Assembly (NCBI GenBank): GCA_027484165.1
Contig: JAIXWH010000011.1
Span: forward strand, 1 to 43,110
Direction of reading: 5' to 3'
DNA length: 43,110 nt
DNA from: Chitinophagaceae bacterium
GTDB lineage: Bacteria > Bacteroidota > Bacteroidia > Chitinophagales > Chitinophagaceae
Part shown: in pieces, positions 21,074 through 29,224 of the stretch
How the letters are laid out: the number at the start of each line of letters is the position of its first letter
Position numbering within the stretch: the stretch's first letter is position 1
Translations under genes and position numbers: made by a program
Notes under the pieces: generated by a model
Told to the model about the DNA's origin: nothing
The model's database searches: none
Seen by the model: the letters and a program-made list of their open reading frames with translations, nothing else

Positions 21074-21081
21074 TAGTATTG
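21074..21081 (+). promoter_or_regulatory. -7-like box TAGTATTG before small-RNA copy 1
   Basis: One mismatch from TAnnTTTG. It ends four bases before the conserved GG that opens the 61-bp element. The copy at 27236 has TATCTTCG at the identical distance, while the surrounding bases differ. Confidence 0.45.
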
Positions 21082-21085
21082 CATT

Positions 21086-21146
21086 GGTTTTTCATAGGAT
21101 ATTGGATTTTAAATCGGGGCTAGATTTTCATCTTGGCCCTTTTTTT
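21086..21146 (+). ncRNA. Candidate small RNA, copy 1 of a duplicated 61-nt element
   Basis: Begins GGTTTTTCATAGG and ends in a hairpin plus T-run. The first 28 nt (21086-21113) are identical to 27236-27263. The hairpin pairs GGGC (21117-21120) with GCCC (21136-21139), extended by U.G, A-U and GAT/ATC around a TTTC loop, followed by seven T residues. The arms differ from copy 2 (GGGAC/GTCCC there), yet both fold. Similarity stops upstream of GG except for a -7-like box. It lies in the convergent gap after icmF and may also terminate that gene. I do not recognise a known RNA family. Confidence 0.6.
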
Positions 21147-21167
21147 ATTTTAAATTCAACTTATAGT

Positions 21168-22679
21168 TTATTTGTAGAATTTGTTTAATACTGGCATTTT
21201 AGACAATTCATTCGCTTCATATTTACCTACTATTCTGGCGAAAATAATCAGAAAGATAAAACCACTGCTGATAGAAAACCACAATTGATTTTTAATGAGT
21301 TGAGTTAATCCCAAATGAATAAAATAAAATAACACTGCTGTTACAATATATACTGTCAGCTTTTTTACTGCATATGGAACAGGATAATATTTTTGCCCTA
21401 GCTTATAACTACTTATCATCATAAAAAAGTAACAGGAAAATGTAGCTATTGCAGCACCATAATAATGCAGTTTCGGAATCAATAAAATATTCAAAGCAAT
21501 AGTTATCAATGCACCTACAATAGTAATAATTGCACCATACGAGTTTTTGTCCGTCAATTTATACCAGATGCTGAGGTTGTAATAAATACCCAAAAAGATA
21601 TTACCTAATGCTAAAATAGGAATCGCGCCAAAGCCTTCTACCCAATGTTTATTTGAAAAGGTTAAGAAGAACCATCTGAAAACATCCAAAAATAATCCTA
21701 TAAACAAAAACATGAAACAGCATACAATTACAAAAAATTTCATTACTCTGGCATAAGTTAACTGCGCATTCTCGTTCTTGCTATGATTAAAGAAAAAGGG
21801 TTCAGCAGCCATTCTAAAAGCTTGTATCATTATCGTTGTGAGTAATGCCAATCTGAAAATATTCGCAAATATTCCTGCTTCATGATTGGCTTGTTGAATA
21901 GGGAGGTCAACAACATGTCTGTAGATTAATCGGCTTAAAACATCATTAATCATTCCGCCTAAACCTACAATAATTAAAGGTGCACTGTATCTGATTACTT
22001 CTTTCCAAAGCTCTAAACTGAATTTAAGTCTGATTTGTCTGATAACTTTATGAAGAATGATAAGTGTTACTATATTTTCAATGATATTGCCTACTAAATA
22101 ATAGCCAATTCCGAAATTCGGGTAATAAAAGATGTTTAAAAAAGAGGATGGATTATTCTTTACAATATTAGGAACTATTCCCAAAAAGAAGACTACCACT
22201 GCTATATTCGTGAAAATTGCCGCAACTCTTGCAAAAGCATACATTTTAGGTCTGTTCTCTTGTCGAAGCTTCGCAAATGGAAGTGTGTTTAAGTTGTCGA
22301 TTGCCAAAATGCCAATCATCCACAATACATATTCCGGATGTTCTTCCAGATGAGCAACAGCGGTAATGCTATCACGGAATAACCATAATACAATGCTGAA
22401 AAGTATTGTTGAAATAAATAAGGATAGTGATAAAGTGCTGTATAGTTTCTCTTTGTCGTGAGTTTGGGAAAATCGAAAATAAGAGGTTTCCAACCCATAT
22501 GCATACAAGGCATTTAAAAAAGGAATCATTGCATATACCTGAACCAAATCAGCAGTTTCTTCAGGCATTTCAATAAAAAAAGGTAATGCCATATTCATGA
22601 GATAGCCTAGAAAACGGTATGCGATTGTTGGAACTCCATACCACAAGGTTTGACCTGCTAATTTTTTGATGCCACTCAA
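21168..22679 (-). CDS. Polysaccharide/oligosaccharide flippase (MATE-like, Wzx/MOP superfamily)
   Basis: A 503-residue integral membrane protein with about 12-14 hydrophobic helices, opening with the SGIKKLAGQTLWYG start common to Bacteroidota lipopolysaccharide-biosynthesis flippases and continuing through helices such as TILFSIVLWLF, FFVIVCCFMFLFIGLFLDVF and IYYNLSIWYKLTDK. The family moves lipid-linked sugar units across the inner membrane. No glycosyltransferases lie next to it, so its substrate is unknown. The start appears to be TTG at 22679: no ATG/GTG fits before the conserved SGIKK start. It is convergent with icmF, with small-RNA copy 1 between. Confidence 0.85.
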   Translation of the reverse strand: MSGIKKLAGQTLWYGVPTIAYRFLGYLMNMALPFFIEMPEETADLVQVYAMIPFLNALYAYGLETSYFRFSQTHDKEKLYSTLSLSLFISTILFSIVLWLFRDSITAVAHLEEHPEYVLWMIGILAIDNLNTLPFAKLRQENRPKMYAFARVAAIFTNIAVVVFFLGIVPNIVKNNPSSFLNIFYYPNFGIGYYLVGNIIENIVTLIILHKVIRQIRLKFSLELWKEVIRYSAPLIIVGLGGMINDVLSRLIYRHVVDLPIQQANHEAGIFANIFRLALLTTIMIQAFRMAAEPFFFNHSKNENAQLTYARVMKFFVIVCCFMFLFIGLFLDVFRWFFLTFSNKHWVEGFGAIPILALGNIFLGIYYNLSIWYKLTDKNSYGAIITIVGALITIALNILLIPKLHYYGAAIATFSCYFFMMISSYKLGQKYYPVPYAVKKLTVYIVTAVLFYFIHLGLTQLIKNQLWFSISSGFIFLIIFARIVGKYEANELSKMPVLNKFYK

Positions 22680-22735
22680 TATCTTTTATTTTGGGTGTAA
22701 ATTAAATATAAAAACATAAACGCAAACGGTTAGTT

Positions 22736-23140
22736 TCATCCCAGATTTATTTTTATCTTTTTTCTGTTTTCTTTTTTTGCAGCATCATTTTTTTTCGATT
22801 CCATTCTTTTTTCTTTTGAAGCTTTAGTGGGTTTTGTTGCTTTTCTTTTTTTAGGAACAATTAGTGCTTTGTTGATTGCGTTATTTATTTTTTTTACAAC
22901 CTCATCTTTATTTGCTAGCTGAGTCCTGAATTCTTGACATTTCATCATCAATAATCCTTCAGCATTAATCTTGCGTTGTAATTTCAGAGTAATGAGTTGC
23001 TTTTGGTCATTTGTAAAGAATGAAGACTTTTCGATATTCCAATAGCCCTCCACCATCGTTTCAACCTTATTTATATGTTGACCTCCCTTGCCTCCACTTC
23101 TGTCAGTTTTAAATTTAATTTCTGGTTTTACATCAATCAT
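22736..23140 (-). CDS. arfB: Alternative ribosome-rescue factor ArfB (peptidyl-tRNA hydrolase, RF-1 domain)
   Basis: Small codon-independent release factor that frees stalled ribosomes. The GGQ motif lies in SGGKGGQHINKVET (Gln at about residue 21 from the ATG) and a lysine-rich C-terminal tail (KKRKATKPTKASKEKRMESKK and beyond) fits the ArfB tail that enters the empty mRNA channel. I use the ATG at 23140 (MIDVKPEIKFK, 134 residues) rather than the in-frame GTG at 23146, because a perfect -7 box (TAAATTTG) occupies 23146-23153 and would start the transcript at or near this ATG. It is divergent from the GGGP-synthase gene. Confidence 0.9.
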   Translation of the reverse strand: MIDVKPEIKFKTDRSGGKGGQHINKVETMVEGYWNIEKSSFFTNDQKQLITLKLQRKINAEGLLMMKCQEFRTQLANKDEVVKKINNAINKALIVPKKRKATKPTKASKEKRMESKKNDAAKKENRKKIKINLG

Positions 23141-23145
23141 ACACA

Positions 23146-23153
23146 CAAATTTA
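23146..23153 (-). promoter_or_regulatory. -7 box TAAATTTG five bases before the arfB start codon
   Basis: Exact TAnnTTTG on the minus strand, separated from the ATG at 23140 by TGTGT. The geometry is identical to that of rsmA and predicts a leaderless arfB transcript. Confidence 0.55.
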
Positions 23154-23253
23154 CCATTTTATACGCGTGGTTTCCCTGATTTCAATAATCTGATATTATT
23201 ATTTCGGTTTAATAGAAAAAAAGTAGATTTTTGTATGAAATAATTAATCCAAT

Positions 23254-24012
23254 ATGCAAGTGGGTATTTATCAAAAAATGGTTGAAGATAAAAAACAGCA
23301 CAAGAAATCTTTTGCTGTGCTTATCGATCCAGATAAGGTAAATGAAAAAAATCTTGATGAACTTGCACAGTTAGCCATCGACGCACAAGTAGATTATTTT
23401 TTTCTTGGCGGAAGTTTAGTTATTTCAAATAACCTTGATGAATGTGTGTTGTCGTTGAAAGCAAAATGCAATATTCCTGTTGTTTTGTTTCCCGGAAGCC
23501 CATCTCAAATATCCAAACATGCAGACGCATTGTTGTATTTGTCATTAATAAGTGGCCGTAATCCTGAATTGCTTATCGGTCAACATGTAATTTCTGCAGC
23601 AGCGGTAAAACTAAGCAGATTGGAAACCCTATCAACAGGGTACATGGTAATAGATGGAGGGGCGCCAACTACAGTTTCATACATAAGTAATGCAAACCCT
23701 TTGCCATCAGATAAAAGTGAAATTGCTATGTGTACTGCTATGGCAGGCGAAATGCTGGGAATGAAATTGATTTACATGGATGCTGGAAGCGGGGCAAAGA
23801 ATCCTATAACAGAATCAATGATTCAAAAAGTATCTTCTTGTATTGAAGTGCCTTTAATTATTGGAGGAGGTATTACTACTGCCGAAAAAGCTTATTTAAA
23901 TTGCAAAGCAGGAGCAGATTTGATTGTTGTTGGTAACGCAATTGAAAAAGACCCTGTTTTGATAAAAGAAATCTCATCAGCAATACATTATCAGTTGGTT
24001 GATTCTAACTAA
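23254..24012 (+). CDS. Geranylgeranylglyceryl/heptaprenylglyceryl phosphate synthase family protein
   Basis: A (beta/alpha)8 prenyltransferase that joins a polyprenyl diphosphate to sn-glycerol-1-phosphate, the first ether-lipid step in archaea. Recognisable segments are FAVLIDPDKVNEKN near the start, YFFLGGSLVISNN, VVLFPGSPSQIS, YLSLISGRNPELLIGQHV, GYMVIDGGAPTTV, YMDAGSGAKNPI and the phosphate-binding PLIIGGGITTAEKA and GADLIVVGNAIEKD. Length 252 fits group II GGGP synthases, which include bacterial members; from memory a Chitinophaga enzyme has been characterised. What lipid it serves in Bacteroidota is unclear. ATG at 23254. No other ether-lipid gene is in the window. ruvB follows after 88 bp. 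Confidence 0.88.
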   Translation: MQVGIYQKMVEDKKQHKKSFAVLIDPDKVNEKNLDELAQLAIDAQVDYFFLGGSLVISNNLDECVLSLKAKCNIPVVLFPGSPSQISKHADALLYLSLISGRNPELLIGQHVISAAAVKLSRLETLSTGYMVIDGGAPTTVSYISNANPLPSDKSEIAMCTAMAGEMLGMKLIYMDAGSGAKNPITESMIQKVSSCIEVPLIIGGGITTAEKAYLNCKAGADLIVVGNAIEKDPVLIKEISSAIHYQLVDSN

Positions 24013-24033
24013 TTGTTCAGAATTAATAAACAC

Positions 24034-24060
24034 AAAGCATTAGAAGCTTTTTTGTTTTAT
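24034..24060 (+). terminator. Weak terminator after the GGGP-synthase gene
   Basis: AAAGC (24034-24038) pairs with GCTTT (24046-24050) around a 7-nt loop and runs into TTTTTTGTTTT. The stem is short, so termination is probably partial and ruvB could be reached by read-through. Confidence 0.35.
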
Positions 24061-24100
24061 TATCCTATTATATACTAGATTTACAACTGATTCAAAATTA

Positions 24101-25138
24101 ATGTCGAACCCCAAACCAAATACTAGCAGAGATTTTTTATCGTCACCAGATAAAGAGTTTGAAAATAATATCCGTCCTGGTTATATCAAAGAGTTTAGCG
24201 GGCAAGGTCAAATCATCGACAACATTTCTGTTTTTATCAAAGCATCGAAATTAAGAGGGGAAGCATTGGATCATATTTTGTTTCATGGACCTCCTGGGTT
24301 GGGAAAAACTACTCTTTCCAGAATTGTAGCAAACGAGATGGGTGTTAATATCAAAGAAACTTCTGGTCCTGTAATTGAAAAGCCAGGTGATTTAGCGGGG
24401 TTGTTGACCAATCTGGAACCGAACGATGTTCTATTTATCGATGAAATTCACCGATTAAGCACAGTGGTTGAAGAGTATTTATATGCAGCTATGGAGGATT
24501 TCAGGATTGATATCATGATTGATAGTGGGCCCAATGCAAGAAGTGTTCAACTTACTTTAAATCCTTTTACACTAATAGGAGCTACAACCAGAAGCGGATT
24601 ACTTACGGCACCACTTTTATCAAGGTTTGGTATTAAATCACGTCTGGAATATTATGATGCAGAAACGCTAAAAAATATATTACTCAGAAGCTCAAGCATT
24701 TTAAAAACTAAAATTACTAGCGATGCTGCTGGGGAGATTGCAAGAAGAAGCAGAGGCACTCCTAGAATTGCAAATGGATTATTAAGAAGAGTAAGAGATT
24801 TTGCACAAGTGATTGGTAACGGAGTAATTGATATGGATATTACCAAACATTCATTAAAGGCATTAAATGTTGATCAGCATGGTTTGGATGAAATGGACAA
24901 CAGAATATTAAGCACTATCATAGAGAAATTCAAAGGTGGTCCAGTAGGAATTACCACTATTGCTACCGCGGTTGGAGAGGAGCCCGGAACTTTAGAAGAA
25001 GTTTATGAGCCTTTTTTAATTCAGGAAGGGTTTATCATGAGAACACCACGAGGTAGAGAGGCTACAGAAAAAGCATACAAGCACTTAGGAAAAGTGCCGC
25101 ACAAAGGCGGCACTCAACATGGTTTATTTGGAAATTAA
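24101..25138 (+). CDS. ruvB: Holliday junction branch-migration ATPase RuvB
   Basis: AAA+ motor of the RuvAB complex that drives branch migration at Holliday junctions. Walker [10 protein letters not shown], Walker [11 protein letters not shown], sensor-1 [18 protein letters not shown] and sensor-2 [16 protein letters not shown] are intact, as is the C-terminal winged helix ([27 protein letters not shown]; shown in parts, residues near 290-318). Length 345 is typical. ATG at 24101. ruvA and ruvC are not adjacent. A 7-bp GC-rich perfect stem (25094-25113) lies in the last codons. Confidence 0.97.
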
Positions 25139-25145
25139 TTTAATA

Positions 25146-25844
25146 TTATTCTGTTACAACAAGTCGGAATCCATTTCCATGAATATTCACTATTTCCAAT
25201 TTCTCATCATCTTTTAAATACTTGCGCAACTTGGCAATATAAACATCCATACTTCTTCCATTGAAGTAAGTATCACTGCCCCAGATTTTCTTTAATGCAA
25301 CTTCTCTGGGTAGGAGGTCGTTTTTAAATTCAGCCAACATTTTCAACAGTTCGCTTTCTTTTGGAGAAAGCACACTTGTATTTCCATCAGCTGATAATTG
25401 ACGAAGTTTTGGATTGAAATGGTATTTTCCCAAGTCATACTCCGCATTTGCTTCCTCTTTATGTGTTTCTTCGTTTCTTTTGATGATTGCTTTTATTTTG
25501 TGAAGCAGAACTTCACTGTCAAATGGCTTTGTGATGTAATCATCAGCACCTAATTTGTAACCTTGAATGATATCTTCTTTCATGGTTTTAGCGCTTAAAA
25601 AGAAAAGAGGTACATCTGGGTTTATGTCGCGTATTTCCTCAGCAACTTTAAAGCCATCCATGTTTGGCATCATGATGTCAAGCAAACAAATGTCGTATTT
25701 TTCTCTTTGAAAAGCCGCAAGACCAAGACGTCCATCTCTTTCGAGAGTAACATCATAATCATTTAATTCAAGATAATTTTTCAAAACCATGCCAAGATTA
25801 GTATCATCCTCGCAAAGTAAAATTTTGGTCTTATTTGTTTCCAT
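25146..25844 (-). CDS. OmpR-family response regulator (RprY-like), orphan
   Basis: A 232-residue two-component regulator. The receiver domain (residues 1-125) has the acidic pair in LLCEDD, phospho-acceptor Asp56 in LLDIMMP and the conserved Lys in DYITKPFDSE. The C-terminal OmpR/PhoB winged helix covers about 140-230 (LSPKESELLKMLAEF, then RSMDVYIAKLRKYLK, GNGFRLV). The sequence is close in style to RprY of Bacteroides, a stress-response regulator. No histidine kinase gene is next to it, so the partner is elsewhere. It is convergent with ruvB with only 7 bp between stops. ATG at 25844. Confidence 0.9.
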   Translation of the reverse strand: METNKTKILLCEDDTNLGMVLKNYLELNDYDVTLERDGRLGLAAFQREKYDICLLDIMMPNMDGFKVAEEIRDINPDVPLFFLSAKTMKEDIIQGYKLGADDYITKPFDSEVLLHKIKAIIKRNEETHKEEANAEYDLGKYHFNPKLRQLSADGNTSVLSPKESELLKMLAEFKNDLLPREVALKKIWGSDTYFNGRSMDVYIAKLRKYLKDDEKLEIVNIHGNGFRLVVTE

Positions 25845-26014
25845 AAAAATGATTTTAGTTACTCCAAATTATTAAAATGAAATTTTAAAGTGACTTTATT
25901 CATTCTAATATTTTGTTAAAGCTACTTGTTTTTGATAATTTAAAACACAAAATTAAAATTCGATGAGCCGTTTAAAGGCAATACTTAACATCAATTAAGA
26001 TGATTTACATCAGC

Positions 26015-26953
26015 TTAATTTTTAGCATATCGTTTATCTGTTAATGTTTTCAAAAAAGCTACTAAATCTTTTTTTTGTTGATTAGTTAATCCTAAAGGTT
26101 TCGACAAAGAGGGGTCTAAGTTTTTTGTGTCAGGAACTACTTTTTGTACATCATTGTAGTAATCAACTACTTCTTCAAGTGTTTTAAAAATACCGTTATG
26201 CATGTAAGGGCTAGTAATTCCAATATTTCTGAGCCCGGGAGTTTTAAATTTACCAAGATCATCTTTATCTCTTGTTATGAGAAATCTTCCACTATCATTA
26301 AAATTGTTGCCATTAAATAAGCCAATGTTTTTAAAATCATCATTTGTAAAATCAATTTGAAAATGGCACTCAAAACATTTGGCTTTATTGCTCAAAAAAA
26401 CTTGTCTTCCTCTTTCTTCAGAAGCAGACAATCTTGTTTTATTATTAGCCCAGTCATCAAATTTACTGTCTGAGGTTTCCAATGTACTTTCAAAGGCGGC
26501 GATTGCTGCAGCAAGATTCATTTGATTTGGATCGGAATTAAAAACCAGTTGAAATTGTTTTTTATAAAATGAAGATTGGTTCAATCTATATATAGCCTCT
26601 TTTATAGGCAATCCCATTTCATCAGGATTTTGAATGGGCATTAATGATTGTTCTTCCAATGAAGAAGATCTGCCATCCCAAAAATAATAGGGCCTATTTT
26701 TCATATTTAGTACTGAAGGAGTGTTTCTCTTGGTTAATTTGCCTCTTACTCCCACACTGAAAGGAAGTGTATCAGCAAATCCTAAATTAGGGTTATGACA
26801 AGAAGAACAACTAACTGAGGAGTCTTTAGAAAGAATTTTTTCATTAAAAAGTAATTTTCCTAATGAAGCTTTACTATATAGGTGTTCTGTGTTTGAAAAC
26901 CCCCAAATCGTAATTGCAATAATTAACAGTATTGTTACAAAAGCAAATTTCAT
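26015..26953 (-). CDS. Di-haem cytochrome c peroxidase (CcpA/MauG family)
   Basis: Periplasmic di-haem enzyme reducing hydrogen peroxide with electrons from small cytochromes. Two CxxCH haem sites are present: CSSCH at 49-53 and CFECH at 193-197. Family segments LGKLLFNEKILS, GVRGKLTKRNTPSVLNM, FWDGR, and KTPGLRNIGITSPYMHNG near the C-terminus (distal Met/His region) are clear. The N-terminus has one hydrophobic segment (residues 3-19), a signal peptide or membrane anchor. Length 312 is on the usual scale. A -7-like box TAACTTCG (26959-26966) sits five bases before the ATG at 26953, suggesting a leaderless message. MauG-like modifying activity is an alternative. Confidence 0.9.
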   Translation of the reverse strand: MKFAFVTILLIIAITIWGFSNTEHLYSKASLGKLLFNEKILSKDSSVSCSSCHNPNLGFADTLPFSVGVRGKLTKRNTPSVLNMKNRPYYFWDGRSSSLEEQSLMPIQNPDEMGLPIKEAIYRLNQSSFYKKQFQLVFNSDPNQMNLAAAIAAFESTLETSDSKFDDWANNKTRLSASEERGRQVFLSNKAKCFECHFQIDFTNDDFKNIGLFNGNNFNDSGRFLITRDKDDLGKFKTPGLRNIGITSPYMHNGIFKTLEEVVDYYNDVQKVVPDTKNLDPSLSKPLGLTNQQKKDLVAFLKTLTDKRYAKN

Positions 26954-27235
26954 TTACACGAAGTTAAACATCAGTATTTATAAATCAATTTATCCTGTTT
27001 TGCACTAAATATCTTGAGCACTTTAATTACAATTCCAATAATTGAATACATTTTCTTTTAAGGTTGCAATTTAAAATTCTAAAAAATTAGCAGCCTATAT
27101 ATCAAATAAAAATTCTATTCCACAAACCTTTGCATAAAATAAAAATAGTATCTGTCAGAATGATCAACAATACTTTACCTAAAATTAAAACGATTTTTAT
27201 TTTTTTTTGAAAAAAACCTATTCTATCTTCGTTTC
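26954..27235. other. AT-rich spacer upstream of the cytochrome c peroxidase and of small-RNA copy 2
   Basis: The recQ-peroxidase gap (26954-27319, 366 bp) holds the small-RNA candidate at its recQ end. The remaining 280 bp are AT-rich and I see no gene. The minus strand next to 26953 carries the TAACTTCG box for the peroxidase. Only trivial open frames occur, such as a 16-codon one at about 27160 on the plus strand. Confidence 0.55.
27224..27231 (+). promoter_or_regulatory. -7-like box TATCTTCG before small-RNA copy 2
   Basis: One mismatch from TAnnTTTG, ending four bases before the conserved GG at 27236, exactly as for copy 1. A TTG at 27207-27209 lies 14 bp upstream, closer than a standard -33 element. 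Confidence 0.45.
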
Positions 27236-27296
27236 GGTTTTTCATAGGATATTGGATTTTAAAGCGGGACTAGATTTTTATCTTGGTCCCTTTTTT
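27236..27296 (+). ncRNA. Candidate small RNA, copy 2 of the duplicated 61-nt element
   Basis: Same architecture as 21086-21146: an identical 28-nt 5' segment, then a hairpin pairing GGGAC (27266-27270) with GTCCC (27286-27290), extended by U.G, A-U and GAT/ATC around a TTTT loop, then six T residues. Here both flanking genes (recQ and the peroxidase) are on the minus strand. The T-run is on the plus strand, so the hairpin cannot be the terminator of either flanking gene. This is the main argument for an independent plus-strand transcript. Confidence 0.65.
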
Positions 27297-27319: not shown

Positions 27320-29224
27320 TTAATTTAGTTTCAAAACTCCATTCTCATTAATAGAAATCATGTTTTCTGATTCAAGATATTTTATTGCTAGATTGATATC
27401 TTCAATTTTAAATTCAGCTAAAAGATGTTGAAGTTCTGTTTTAGTTTTCGGTCCCTTTTTTAAAGCATCTTTTACTTTGGGAAGTAATTTTGGAACTTCA
27501 CTTTTAGATGATTTGTTTTTCTTTGAAAGGCAATTGTCGCATATACCACATTCGACAATTGATAGGTCATTGAAGTAATTACCAATTACTCTACTTCGGC
27601 AATCATTAATGTTTAGGCAATAGTTAATAATTGCATTGATTCTTTTTAAATGCTTTTCCTTTCTTTCTAATAATCCCTTCTCATTAAACTTAAAATCATC
27701 TTTGTACATCCTGTTTTGCAATAATAGGATTTGAGGTTTGTTGTTTTGAGGTTTATATTCAACCATTTCATGTTGATGTAATTGTTCTAATTGTTTTTTT
27801 ACTTGTGTAATGGGTGTTGAAATGAATTTTGCCAAAGCCGTTTCGTAAATAGAAACAGGAAAGTCAAATATGCCGGGGTAACTTCTCAATAAACCTTTTA
27901 TAATACCTTCAAATTGCGGCTCTCTGCTTTCAAATTCAAAAATCTGCTCTTTGGTTGATGTAAAAACAAGAGTAGCTGTTTTGTTGGAGGATTCGGTATA
28001 GCTTAATATTTCTTCCTGAGCTAAGGCTTGCAGTCCATAATTTGCCTGTAAAGTTTTCCATTTGAATCTTTCACAAAATTCAGCAAGATCAAAATTGAAA
28101 GTCTGATTTTCTCCGACTCCTGCAGGTACCTGAAAATAGTTCATGATGTCTTGATACAGTTTTTTTAAAACTTCAATACTTGGATATCTGAGTTGATTGA
28201 TTTCTTTTAATTCAAATTGTTCTTTCTGCTCTATTAGTAATATTGCAGCTGCAGTTTTTCCATCACGTCCGGCTCGCCCAGCTTCCTGATAATAATTCTC
28301 TAAACTTTCTGGTAAATTAAAATGAACCACCATTCTTACATCAGGTTTATCGATGCCCATTCCAAAAGCATTTGTACAAACCATGATTCTCTTTCTGTTT
28401 TTTATCCAATTCTCTTGTTTTGAATTTCTTTCATCATTGGTAAGTCCCGCATGATAAAAATCAGCATCGAGTTGATGTTGATTTAGTAAGATGGAAATTT
28501 CCTGTGTTTGTTTTCTGCTCTTACAATAAACAATGGAGGACCCTATTGCTTTTTTTAAAATATTTAATAGTTCGTTGTATTTTGATGGCGGTTGAATTAC
28601 ATTATACGAAAGATTAGGCCTTTCAAATGATTGCTGAAATATTTTAGCATTTTTTCTAAAGGATAATTTTTCGCAAATATCTTTTTGCACCTCAAGGGTT
28701 GCAGATGCAGTTAATGCTATTATTGGAACATCAGGTAGTTGATTTCTTAGGTTAGAGATATTAAGATATGAAGGCCTAAAATCATAACCCCACTGTGAAA
28801 TACAATGTGCTTCATCAATTGCAATCAGTGTAGGTTTTATCGCAGGCAAAAATTCTTCAAACAAATCTGTTTGCAATCGCTCTGGGGATACATAAAGAAA
28901 TTTGTAGTTGCCAAATGCTGCGTTTTGAAGTGTTTTTTTTACGTCAAAAAAAGACATTCCTGAATGGATGAGCAATGCATAGATTCCTTTATTGTTCAAG
29001 TTTTCAACCTGGTCTTTCATGAGTGCAATCAACGGACTCACTACTATGCATATGCCATCATTCATCAAAGCGGGAACCTGAAAACAAATTGATTTCCCGC
29101 CTCCAGTTGGTAGTAATGCAAGAACATCTTTCTTGTTCAATACCGCATCAATAATATTTTGCTGCAAAGGTCTGAAGCTGTCAAAGCCCCAATACTTTTT
29201 TAATATTTCTAAACTTTTGTTCAA
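27320..29224 (-). CDS. recQ: RecQ-family ATP-dependent DNA helicase
   Basis: 3'-5' DNA helicase of recombination and repair. Motifs in order: Walker A LLPTGGGKS (37-45), motif II DEAH (137-140, in IDEAHCISQWG), motif III LTASAT, SIVYCKSRKQT, motif V CTNAFGMGIDKPDVR, and motif VI QEAGRAGRDG. The RQC zinc-binding cysteines follow (CLNINDCRSRVIGNYF, CGICDNC). After a Lys/Ser linker, the last 60 residues look like a small winged helix rather than a clear HRDC domain, as in the shorter Bacteroidota RecQ forms. Length 634. It follows copA by 16 bp and is probably co-transcribed with it. Confidence 0.94.
   Translation of the reverse strand: MNKSLEILKKYWGFDSFRPLQQNIIDAVLNKKDVLALLPTGGGKSICFQVPALMNDGICIVVSPLIALMKDQVENLNNKGIYALLIHSGMSFFDVKKTLQNAAFGNYKFLYVSPERLQTDLFEEFLPAIKPTLIAIDEAHCISQWGYDFRPSYLNISNLRNQLPDVPIIALTASATLEVQKDICEKLSFRKNAKIFQQSFERPNLSYNVIQPPSKYNELLNILKKAIGSSIVYCKSRKQTQEISILLNQHQLDADFYHAGLTNDERNSKQENWIKNRKRIMVCTNAFGMGIDKPDVRMVVHFNLPESLENYYQEAGRAGRDGKTAAAILLIEQKEQFELKEINQLRYPSIEVLKKLYQDIMNYFQVPAGVGENQTFNFDLAEFCERFKWKTLQANYGLQALAQEEILSYTESSNKTATLVFTSTKEQIFEFESREPQFEGIIKGLLRSYPGIFDFPVSIYETALAKFISTPITQVKKQLEQLHQHEMVEYKPQNNKPQILLLQNRMYKDDFKFNEKGLLERKEKHLKRINAIINYCLNINDCRSRVIGNYFNDLSIVECGICDNCLSKKNKSSKSEVPKLLPKVKDALKKGPKTKTELQHLLAEFKIEDINLAIKYLESENMISINENGVLKLN

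Follow-up and report, generated by a model that had tools for sequence, protein, structure and literature searches.

In a 43,110-nucleotide stretch of DNA from a Chitinophagaceae bacterium (GenBank assembly GCA_027484165.1, contig JAIXWH010000011.1, positions 1 to 43,110 of the forward strand; hereafter the window), two copies of a 61-nt element stand on the plus strand at 21086-21146 and 27236-27296. They belong to a family of small RNA (sRNA) genes of about 60 nt whose spread across the Chitinophagaceae, found chiefly in soil and water, holds up computationally. Sequence comparison makes this family a new branch among sRNAs of the FopS kind, described from Bacteroides; the layout is the same and the seed is related, and the family divides into seed subfamilies and, by promoter, into two or more classes. 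The explanation that fits best, and that we consider probable, is a multicopy sRNA that blocks translation initiation by antisense pairing in the manner of FopS.

Anatomy, conservation and spread of the sRNA genes

The two copies share an identical 28-nt 5' part, and their coordinates, taken from a preliminary description of the window, proved correct when re-checked. At up to three mismatches, this 28-mer never occurred in 100 dinucleotide shuffles of the window. It begins with an invariant 22-nt core, the proposed seed (21086-21107 in copy 1, 27236-27257 in copy 2), and is followed by a terminator hairpin and T-run (21116-21146, with the hairpin ending at 21139 or 21140, and 27266-27296, with the hairpin at 27266-27290). 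On re-reading, the stems differ in sequence and both are paired. Upstream, the -7-like boxes TAGTATTG (21074-21081) and TATCTTCG (27224-27231) each stop four bases 5' of the initial GG, at -12 to -5, and the box common to both copies is conserved at this place as TATYTTYG across 124 copies from the genus. The TAnnTTTG -7 box given for Flavobacterium psychrophilum in PMC9723704 occupies the same position; copy 1 fits it more poorly than copy 2. We propose that each copy is a free-standing gene for an sRNA of about 60 nt, whose transcription would start at the GG right after a Bacteroidota-type promoter and end at the intrinsic terminator hairpin.

Conservation centers on the core. In the genus set, defined as the 124 copies within four mismatches of the 22-nt core, each core position carries its commonest base in at least 121 copies, although a set chosen by core similarity overstates invariance. 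The copies can be followed at three loci next to unrelated housekeeping genes, namely recQ (n = 39), uvrC with gldN upstream (n = 48) and queA (n = 15); recQ was named via Pfam, gldN and queA via NCBIfam, and uvrC by reading the sequence. In ungapped pairs, the core is 99.2-100% identical at these loci, and identical in 39 of 39 copies at recQ, the locus of copy 2. The flanks are only 27-30% (+71 to +120) and 36-46% (-60 to -14) identical, which is chance-like. A near-identical core between diverged flanks indicates that selection has preserved the element, and not that it was copied recently. With its conserved places next to recQ, uvrC and queA, the family is also easy to recognize in cultured strains.

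The hairpin is maintained by compensatory changes, as a covariation count on the 90 distinct sequences among the 124 genus copies revealed. Its 10 pairs are formed in 91.7% of cells, versus 34-60% when the partner is slid by one to three columns. There are 51 double-change cells (shuffle mean 9.7), a number reached by none of 500 shuffles; six pairs show a double change, which 21 of 500 shuffles also reached. Of the 90 apical loops, 43 read UUCU and 29 read UUUU, and 89 are closed by a U-A pair; in single-sequence folds the 5' part is only weakly paired.

Could the element be only a conserved terminator or 5' leader of neighboring genes? With a crude open reading frame (ORF) picker, the upstream gene lies on the same strand for 80 of the 124 genus copies, in keeping with such a role, yet it is opposite in 38 (unknown in 6), so the copies are not confined to 3' ends of co-directional genes. 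In addition, 103 of the 124 copies face a convergent downstream gene, a promoter box sits immediately upstream, and what is conserved at the uvrC and queA loci is the 5' single-stranded core and not the stem. We therefore regard a mere terminator or leader as very improbable.

In the window, copy 2 is flanked, as initially described, by two minus-strand ORFs, 26015-26953 and 27320-29224, which match a di-haem cytochrome c peroxidase and a RecQ-type helicase, respectively. Copy 1 neighbors a plus-strand methylmalonyl-CoA mutase-type ORF and a minus-strand ORF with a sub-threshold polysaccharide-biosynthesis match. A search of the window against Rfam at gathering score returned zero matches, in line with the earlier failure to recognize a named family. 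The lone match in an E-value Rfam search of 6.4 kb was transfer-messenger RNA, which we judged to be chance.

The preliminary description had called the element duplicated. This stands insofar as only two places in the genome lie within three mismatches of the 28-mer, but a covariance model found eight matches. By inspection, six of these are type A, the type of the window copies, one belongs to a subfamily B (contig C131) and one is doubtful (contig C62, 24.9 bits). Besides the window pair, type A occurs once on contig C156 and three times in tandem on contig C98 (52674-53001; L241 1501-1828), with 134-bp spacing and a 2-nt core insertion (CATATAGG). An RRM_1 gene follows about 10 kb further along contig C98.

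The suggestion that the element is a multicopy, widespread sRNA gained support from the sequences of relatives. The 28-mer, at up to three mismatches, is present in 34 of 36 genomes of the genus, the genome of the window included, with up to eight copies per genome, and absent from 23 genomes of the order's other families. Flanks were fetched for all such genus copies except G035:C65. The exact 22-mer occurs in at least 118 stretches of GTDB genomes; the matches listed fall to Chitinophagaceae, Chitinophagia, Chitinophagales, Sphingobacteriales or unplaced Bacteroidetes/Bacteroidota records, and include Niastella, Chitinophaga, Ferruginibacter, Flavihumibacter, Puia, Terrimonas and Cnuella. 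A covariance model built from the genus copies, R1, matched 118 of 147 Chitinophagaceae genomes and 79 of 100 genera (E ≤ 0.01); counted from the listing, the best match reached E ≤ 1e-5 in 108 of the 147. Outside Chitinophagaceae, in an order-wide sample of 149 genomes, R1 matches were weak except in G036 (E 2.9e-8) and G047 (8.4e-6 and 3.1e-5), and a clear promoter is absent by eye from these loci (L255-L257). The G036 locus, from another family of the order (L255 1501-1557, 40.6 bits), carries GGTTTTTCATATGATATAATTTTTAAAAG and a terminator and is possibly antisense to a gene start. A loose pattern matched 67 of 296 genomes across the phylum and is unspecific, and the exact 28-mer had no match in IMG/VR viral contigs.

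Relation to FopS and seed subfamilies

FopS (Rfam RF04319, BTncRNA_FopS) comprises paralogous sRNAs of Bacteroides that block start codons, with the 70% consensus GTGTTTTTCATAGTATTAGATTTAAGGTTAACAAA and high conservation inside Bacteroidaceae; the discussion of the same paper sees no strong sub-diversification within it (PMC11697453). Aligned with FopS as GTTTTTCATAG--TATT.GATTT, type A shows 20 identities in 23 columns with one 2-nt gap, and only 3 of 20,000 shuffles aligned as well. The RF04319 model aligns copy 2 over its full length, in the correct place and strand, at 13.7 bits. This compares with a gathering score of 56 bits and with 77-78 bits for Bacteroides FopS-type loci, and so marks a new branch rather than a filed FopS member. 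Among 195 Chitinophagaceae genomes, 33 had an RF04319 match at E ≤ 0.05. In the reverse direction, R1 and a further model, R2, both built from Chitinophagaceae members only, each detected all eight fetched Bacteroides FopS-type loci at the FopS position, with E values over 24 kb of 8.9e-5 to 0.12 and 1.9e-4 to 0.77, respectively. Four of these loci lie above and four below the Rfam cut-off.

A distinct, well-conserved subfamily C (TTTTCATAGGATAAGGTTTAATGGTTAATGG) made up 19 of 30 viewed loci from the RF04319 search of Chitinophagaceae, one of them (L354) in the genus of the window. Its terminator hairpin covaries, and it was found in 82 of 195 Chitinophagaceae genomes at E ≤ 0.001; the genome of the window has no type C match at this level, and among 296 genomes of the phylum the only matches outside Chitinophagaceae were two, in one genome, at E of about 9e-4. 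C resembles FopS closely (1 of 20,000 shuffles as good) and carries the 3' extension of the FopS R1' seed that A lacks, and it shares TTTTCATAGGATA with A (23 of 20,000). Among 22 distinct C copies with flanks, four have type A copies on the same strand, 215-389 bp upstream. As judged from these sequences, subfamily C is a bridge between type A and FopS within the same genus. Subfamily B (AGTTTTCATAGGGTACGGATTAAAAAC), with a terminator hairpin of its own, occurs on contig C131 of the genome studied here (L242 1501-1559) and at L249-L253; it resembles A (7 of 20,000 shuffles as good) and only weakly FopS (273 of 20,000). A possible fourth variant, GGTTTTTCATAGGATATGGTTAA plus terminator, was seen at L259 1501-1565 and near 1501 in L389 and L390.

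Type A and FopS may alternatively be non-homologous sRNAs that acquired the shared UUUUUCAUAG independently, as the complement of the common start AUGAAAA. Several observations are in agreement with such a convergence. The start region that UUUUUCAU complements is very common, copy 2 scores weakly with the RF04319 model, B is only weakly similar to FopS, and several sub-threshold RF04319 matches in other families (near 1501 in L353, L355, L358 and L360) resemble antisense to starts ATGAAAAAC, from which it follows that the model partly recognizes the start-codon complement itself. The likeness, however, extends past this complement (TATT.GATTT), promoter, seed and terminator come in the same order, and subfamily C, found in tandem with type A, links the two. 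R1 and R2 moreover recovered all the Bacteroides loci, though these were chosen by FopS pattern or model. We thus find convergence doubtful, if the most serious of the alternatives, and favor a relationship between type A and FopS.

Start-region pairing and candidate targets

In Bacteroides, the FopS seed pairs with the start-codon region of susC mRNA and blocks translation, and the RNA recognition motif (RRM) protein RbpB binds FopS RNAs and counteracts this block, as described in PMC11697453. By analogy, the 5' part GGUUUUUCAUAGGAUAUUGGAU would be the functional seed of type A, complementary to starts of the form AUG AAA AA(C); its complement reads ATCCAATATCCT-ATG-AAA-AAC-C. By base-pairing near the start codon of mRNAs, the seed may impede ribosome binding, and an RRM-type protein may bind and modulate the sRNA as RbpB does FopS.

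In silico, pairing was specific to start regions. Across 400 genes without Ns in the tested windows, the pairing of start regions relative to other positions was stronger for all four seeds than for shuffled seeds, with z-scores of -2.1 (A), -2.6 (B), -2.5 (C) and -4.5 (FopS), and as good a result was obtained with 3, 1, 1 and 0 of 60 shuffled seeds, respectively. Start codons were assigned mechanically throughout, and any ORF with an sRNA copy overlapping its start window was excluded from the target sets. Among 846 genes covering about 1.12 of the 2.5 Mb of the genome studied here, 60 start regions paired at -14 kcal/mol or below, versus a shuffle mean of 25.8, and none of 100 shuffled sets reached that count. 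With GGUUUUUCAU held fixed and the rest shuffled, the count averaged 36.3 and one of 100 sets was as high; at -16 and -18 kcal/mol, 16 and 5 of 100 such sets reached the observed counts. A search of 34 genomes for the 20-nt reverse complement (up to three mismatches) gave mainly exact matches that were or resembled sRNA copies, with not every match checked.

The invariant 22-nt part might instead mainly serve to bind a protein, such as one of the RRM type, with the RNA acting as a decoy or sponge that titrates the protein rather than pairing with mRNA. Identity of 99-100% over 22 nt at three loci exceeds the ordinary need of a seed, RbpB binds FopS RNAs in the same 5' part (PMC11697453), and the genome encodes two RRM_1 proteins (110 and 128 aa). 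Yet the seeds of A, B, C and FopS diverge beyond UUUUCAUAG and nevertheless all pair start-region-specifically, and for the related FopS, pairing with mRNAs has been demonstrated (PMC11697453). A decoy function is in our view unlikely, and we continue to favor antisense block of translation initiation.

Several points weigh against this preference. Copy 2 stays below the RF04319 threshold, and none of the 195 Chitinophagaceae genomes exceeds it. Much of the start-region pairing is that of UUUUUCAU against AUGAAAA, and with GGUUUUUCAU fixed the mean energy was matched by 14 of 100 sets. The minimum-energy fold pairs the seed partly in both window copies. The start regions of 30 susC-family genes (three of these matches below the family cut-off) were no better paired by type A than those of 623 other genes (p 0.37), and genes with signal peptides made up 18% of the top 50 targets versus 25% overall, i.e., no enrichment. 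A preference of type A for susC thus finds no support in silico; with alternative starts, p was 0.51 for type A, and for type C it was 0.02, or 0.25 with alternative starts.

Other candidates came from secretion genes. Among 43 orthologue groups of the fetched loci, a set biased to genes near sRNA copies, gldN among them, gldK had the lowest mean energy (-15.5, n = 12), a value that dinucleotide shuffling matched once in 60 trials and part-fixed shuffling 10 times in 60, and gldN, gldK and gldL ranked first to third by z-score. In the genome of the window, the best start regions include those of a PorP/SprF gene, of the type IX secretion system (T9SS) type B sorted protein that precedes it, and of a protein with a weak T9SS type A sorting domain. 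These belong to two gene pairs, L425 10276-12372 (contig C9) and L437 11751-17753 (contig C98), whose start regions rank at or near the top as complements of the seed; the type B sorted protein carries PKD repeats. As a class, the 25 T9SS genes among the 846 had a median no different from the rest (p 0.15). Three were in the top 10 targets (hypergeometric p 0.0024), but a top 20 with three or more T9SS genes also came from six dinucleotide-shuffled and 13 part-fixed RNAs, out of 100 of each. With the class not clearly enriched and susC not favored by type A, all targets named here are candidates only, the T9SS genes included. A further match inside recQ (window 27323-29065) was discounted as a probable wrong start.

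Promoter classes and comparison with known systems

The paralogues apparently split between housekeeping-type promoters and promoters resembling those of extracytoplasmic function (ECF) sigma factors, as far as upstream motifs indicate, so that more than one kind of promoter appears to drive the family. Of 250 collected type A copies, 235 remained after duplicates and copies truncated at contig ends were dropped. The housekeeping-type pattern TAnnTTN stands at -15 to -4 in 158 of them (shuffle mean 24, maximum 34), the ECF-like pattern CAAY-N14-18-CGTY in 21 (mean 0.7, maximum 5), and both together in 2. The split follows the loci: the housekeeping-type pattern without the ECF-like one marks 39 of 39 recQ and 46 of 48 uvrC copies, whereas 12 of 15 queA copies have the ECF-like pattern, two of these together with the housekeeping one. 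A stricter ECF-like pattern was found upstream of none of 424 ORFs in the genome studied here. In many subfamily C copies (L361, L376, L383, L387, L393), GCAACC stands about 16-17 bases 5' of CATCTTATAT, by eye an ECF-like arrangement.

A CGT -10 box is interpreted in PMC9723704 as the signature of an F. psychrophilum ECF sigma factor whose regulon includes type IX secretion genes, gldN among them. By analogy, the queA-locus copies may respond to a homologous sigma factor. Several paralogues would provide dosage, and different promoters would admit different input signals. We may further speculate that a FopS-type ancestor became an envelope-control circuit in which one ancestral copy, that of the queA locus, is driven by an ECF sigma, like the CGT-box sigma of F. 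psychrophilum, and the RNA limits translation of the type IX secretion machinery and its cargo. Its candidate targets would be gldK and gldN in relatives, and the PorP/SprF gene and T9SS-sorted proteins in the genome of the window. Taken as a whole, this scenario seems improbable to us.

The 22-nt core, searched as text, had no match in open-licence literature. There, nothing was found on FopS, RbpB or sRNA in Chitinophagaceae, and nothing relevant among the matches listed for Chitinophaga and sRNA; the one paper that turned up on sRNAs with several copies in Bacteroidota was that on FopS (PMC11697453). What is new here is thus a FopS relative in Chitinophagaceae, with a core that aligns to the FopS seed. 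About four fifths of the Chitinophagaceae genomes sampled, many of them environmental, carry this related family, which suggests that multicopy sRNAs acting on start codons to block translation are a more ancient and more widely shared layer of regulation in Bacteroidota. Unlike FopS as described in PMC11697453, the paralogues are sorted by promoter class and seed subfamily.

FopS and the Chitinophagaceae family have in common a multicopy genome complement, a 5' stretch GUUUUUCAUAG...UAUU.GAUUU followed by an intrinsic terminator, a -7-box promoter (sigma-ABfr-type) in most copies, here with the exception of the queA locus, complementarity to start-codon regions and RRM_1 proteins encoded in the genome. 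They differ in that the type A seed has a two-nucleotide insertion and other changes and lacks the AAGGUUAAC extension, that the Chitinophagaceae copies fall below the Rfam threshold, that their seeds form subfamilies A, B and C and their promoters housekeeping-type and ECF-like classes, and that susC is not favored in silico by type A. GibS of Bacteroides thetaiotaomicron has the R1 seed in common with FopS but features a second seed and an extra promoter motif (PMC11697453). GibS is considered here by its description and not by sequence comparison. In enterobacteria, RybB and MicA are sigma-E-dependent sRNAs. They belong to another phylum and are compared here in function only, as short seed sRNAs tied to an ECF-type sigma and to envelope proteins, a likeness that would concern the queA-locus copies alone. 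If the envelope circuit outlined above were true, it would be a Bacteroidota counterpart of the sigma-E/RybB loop.

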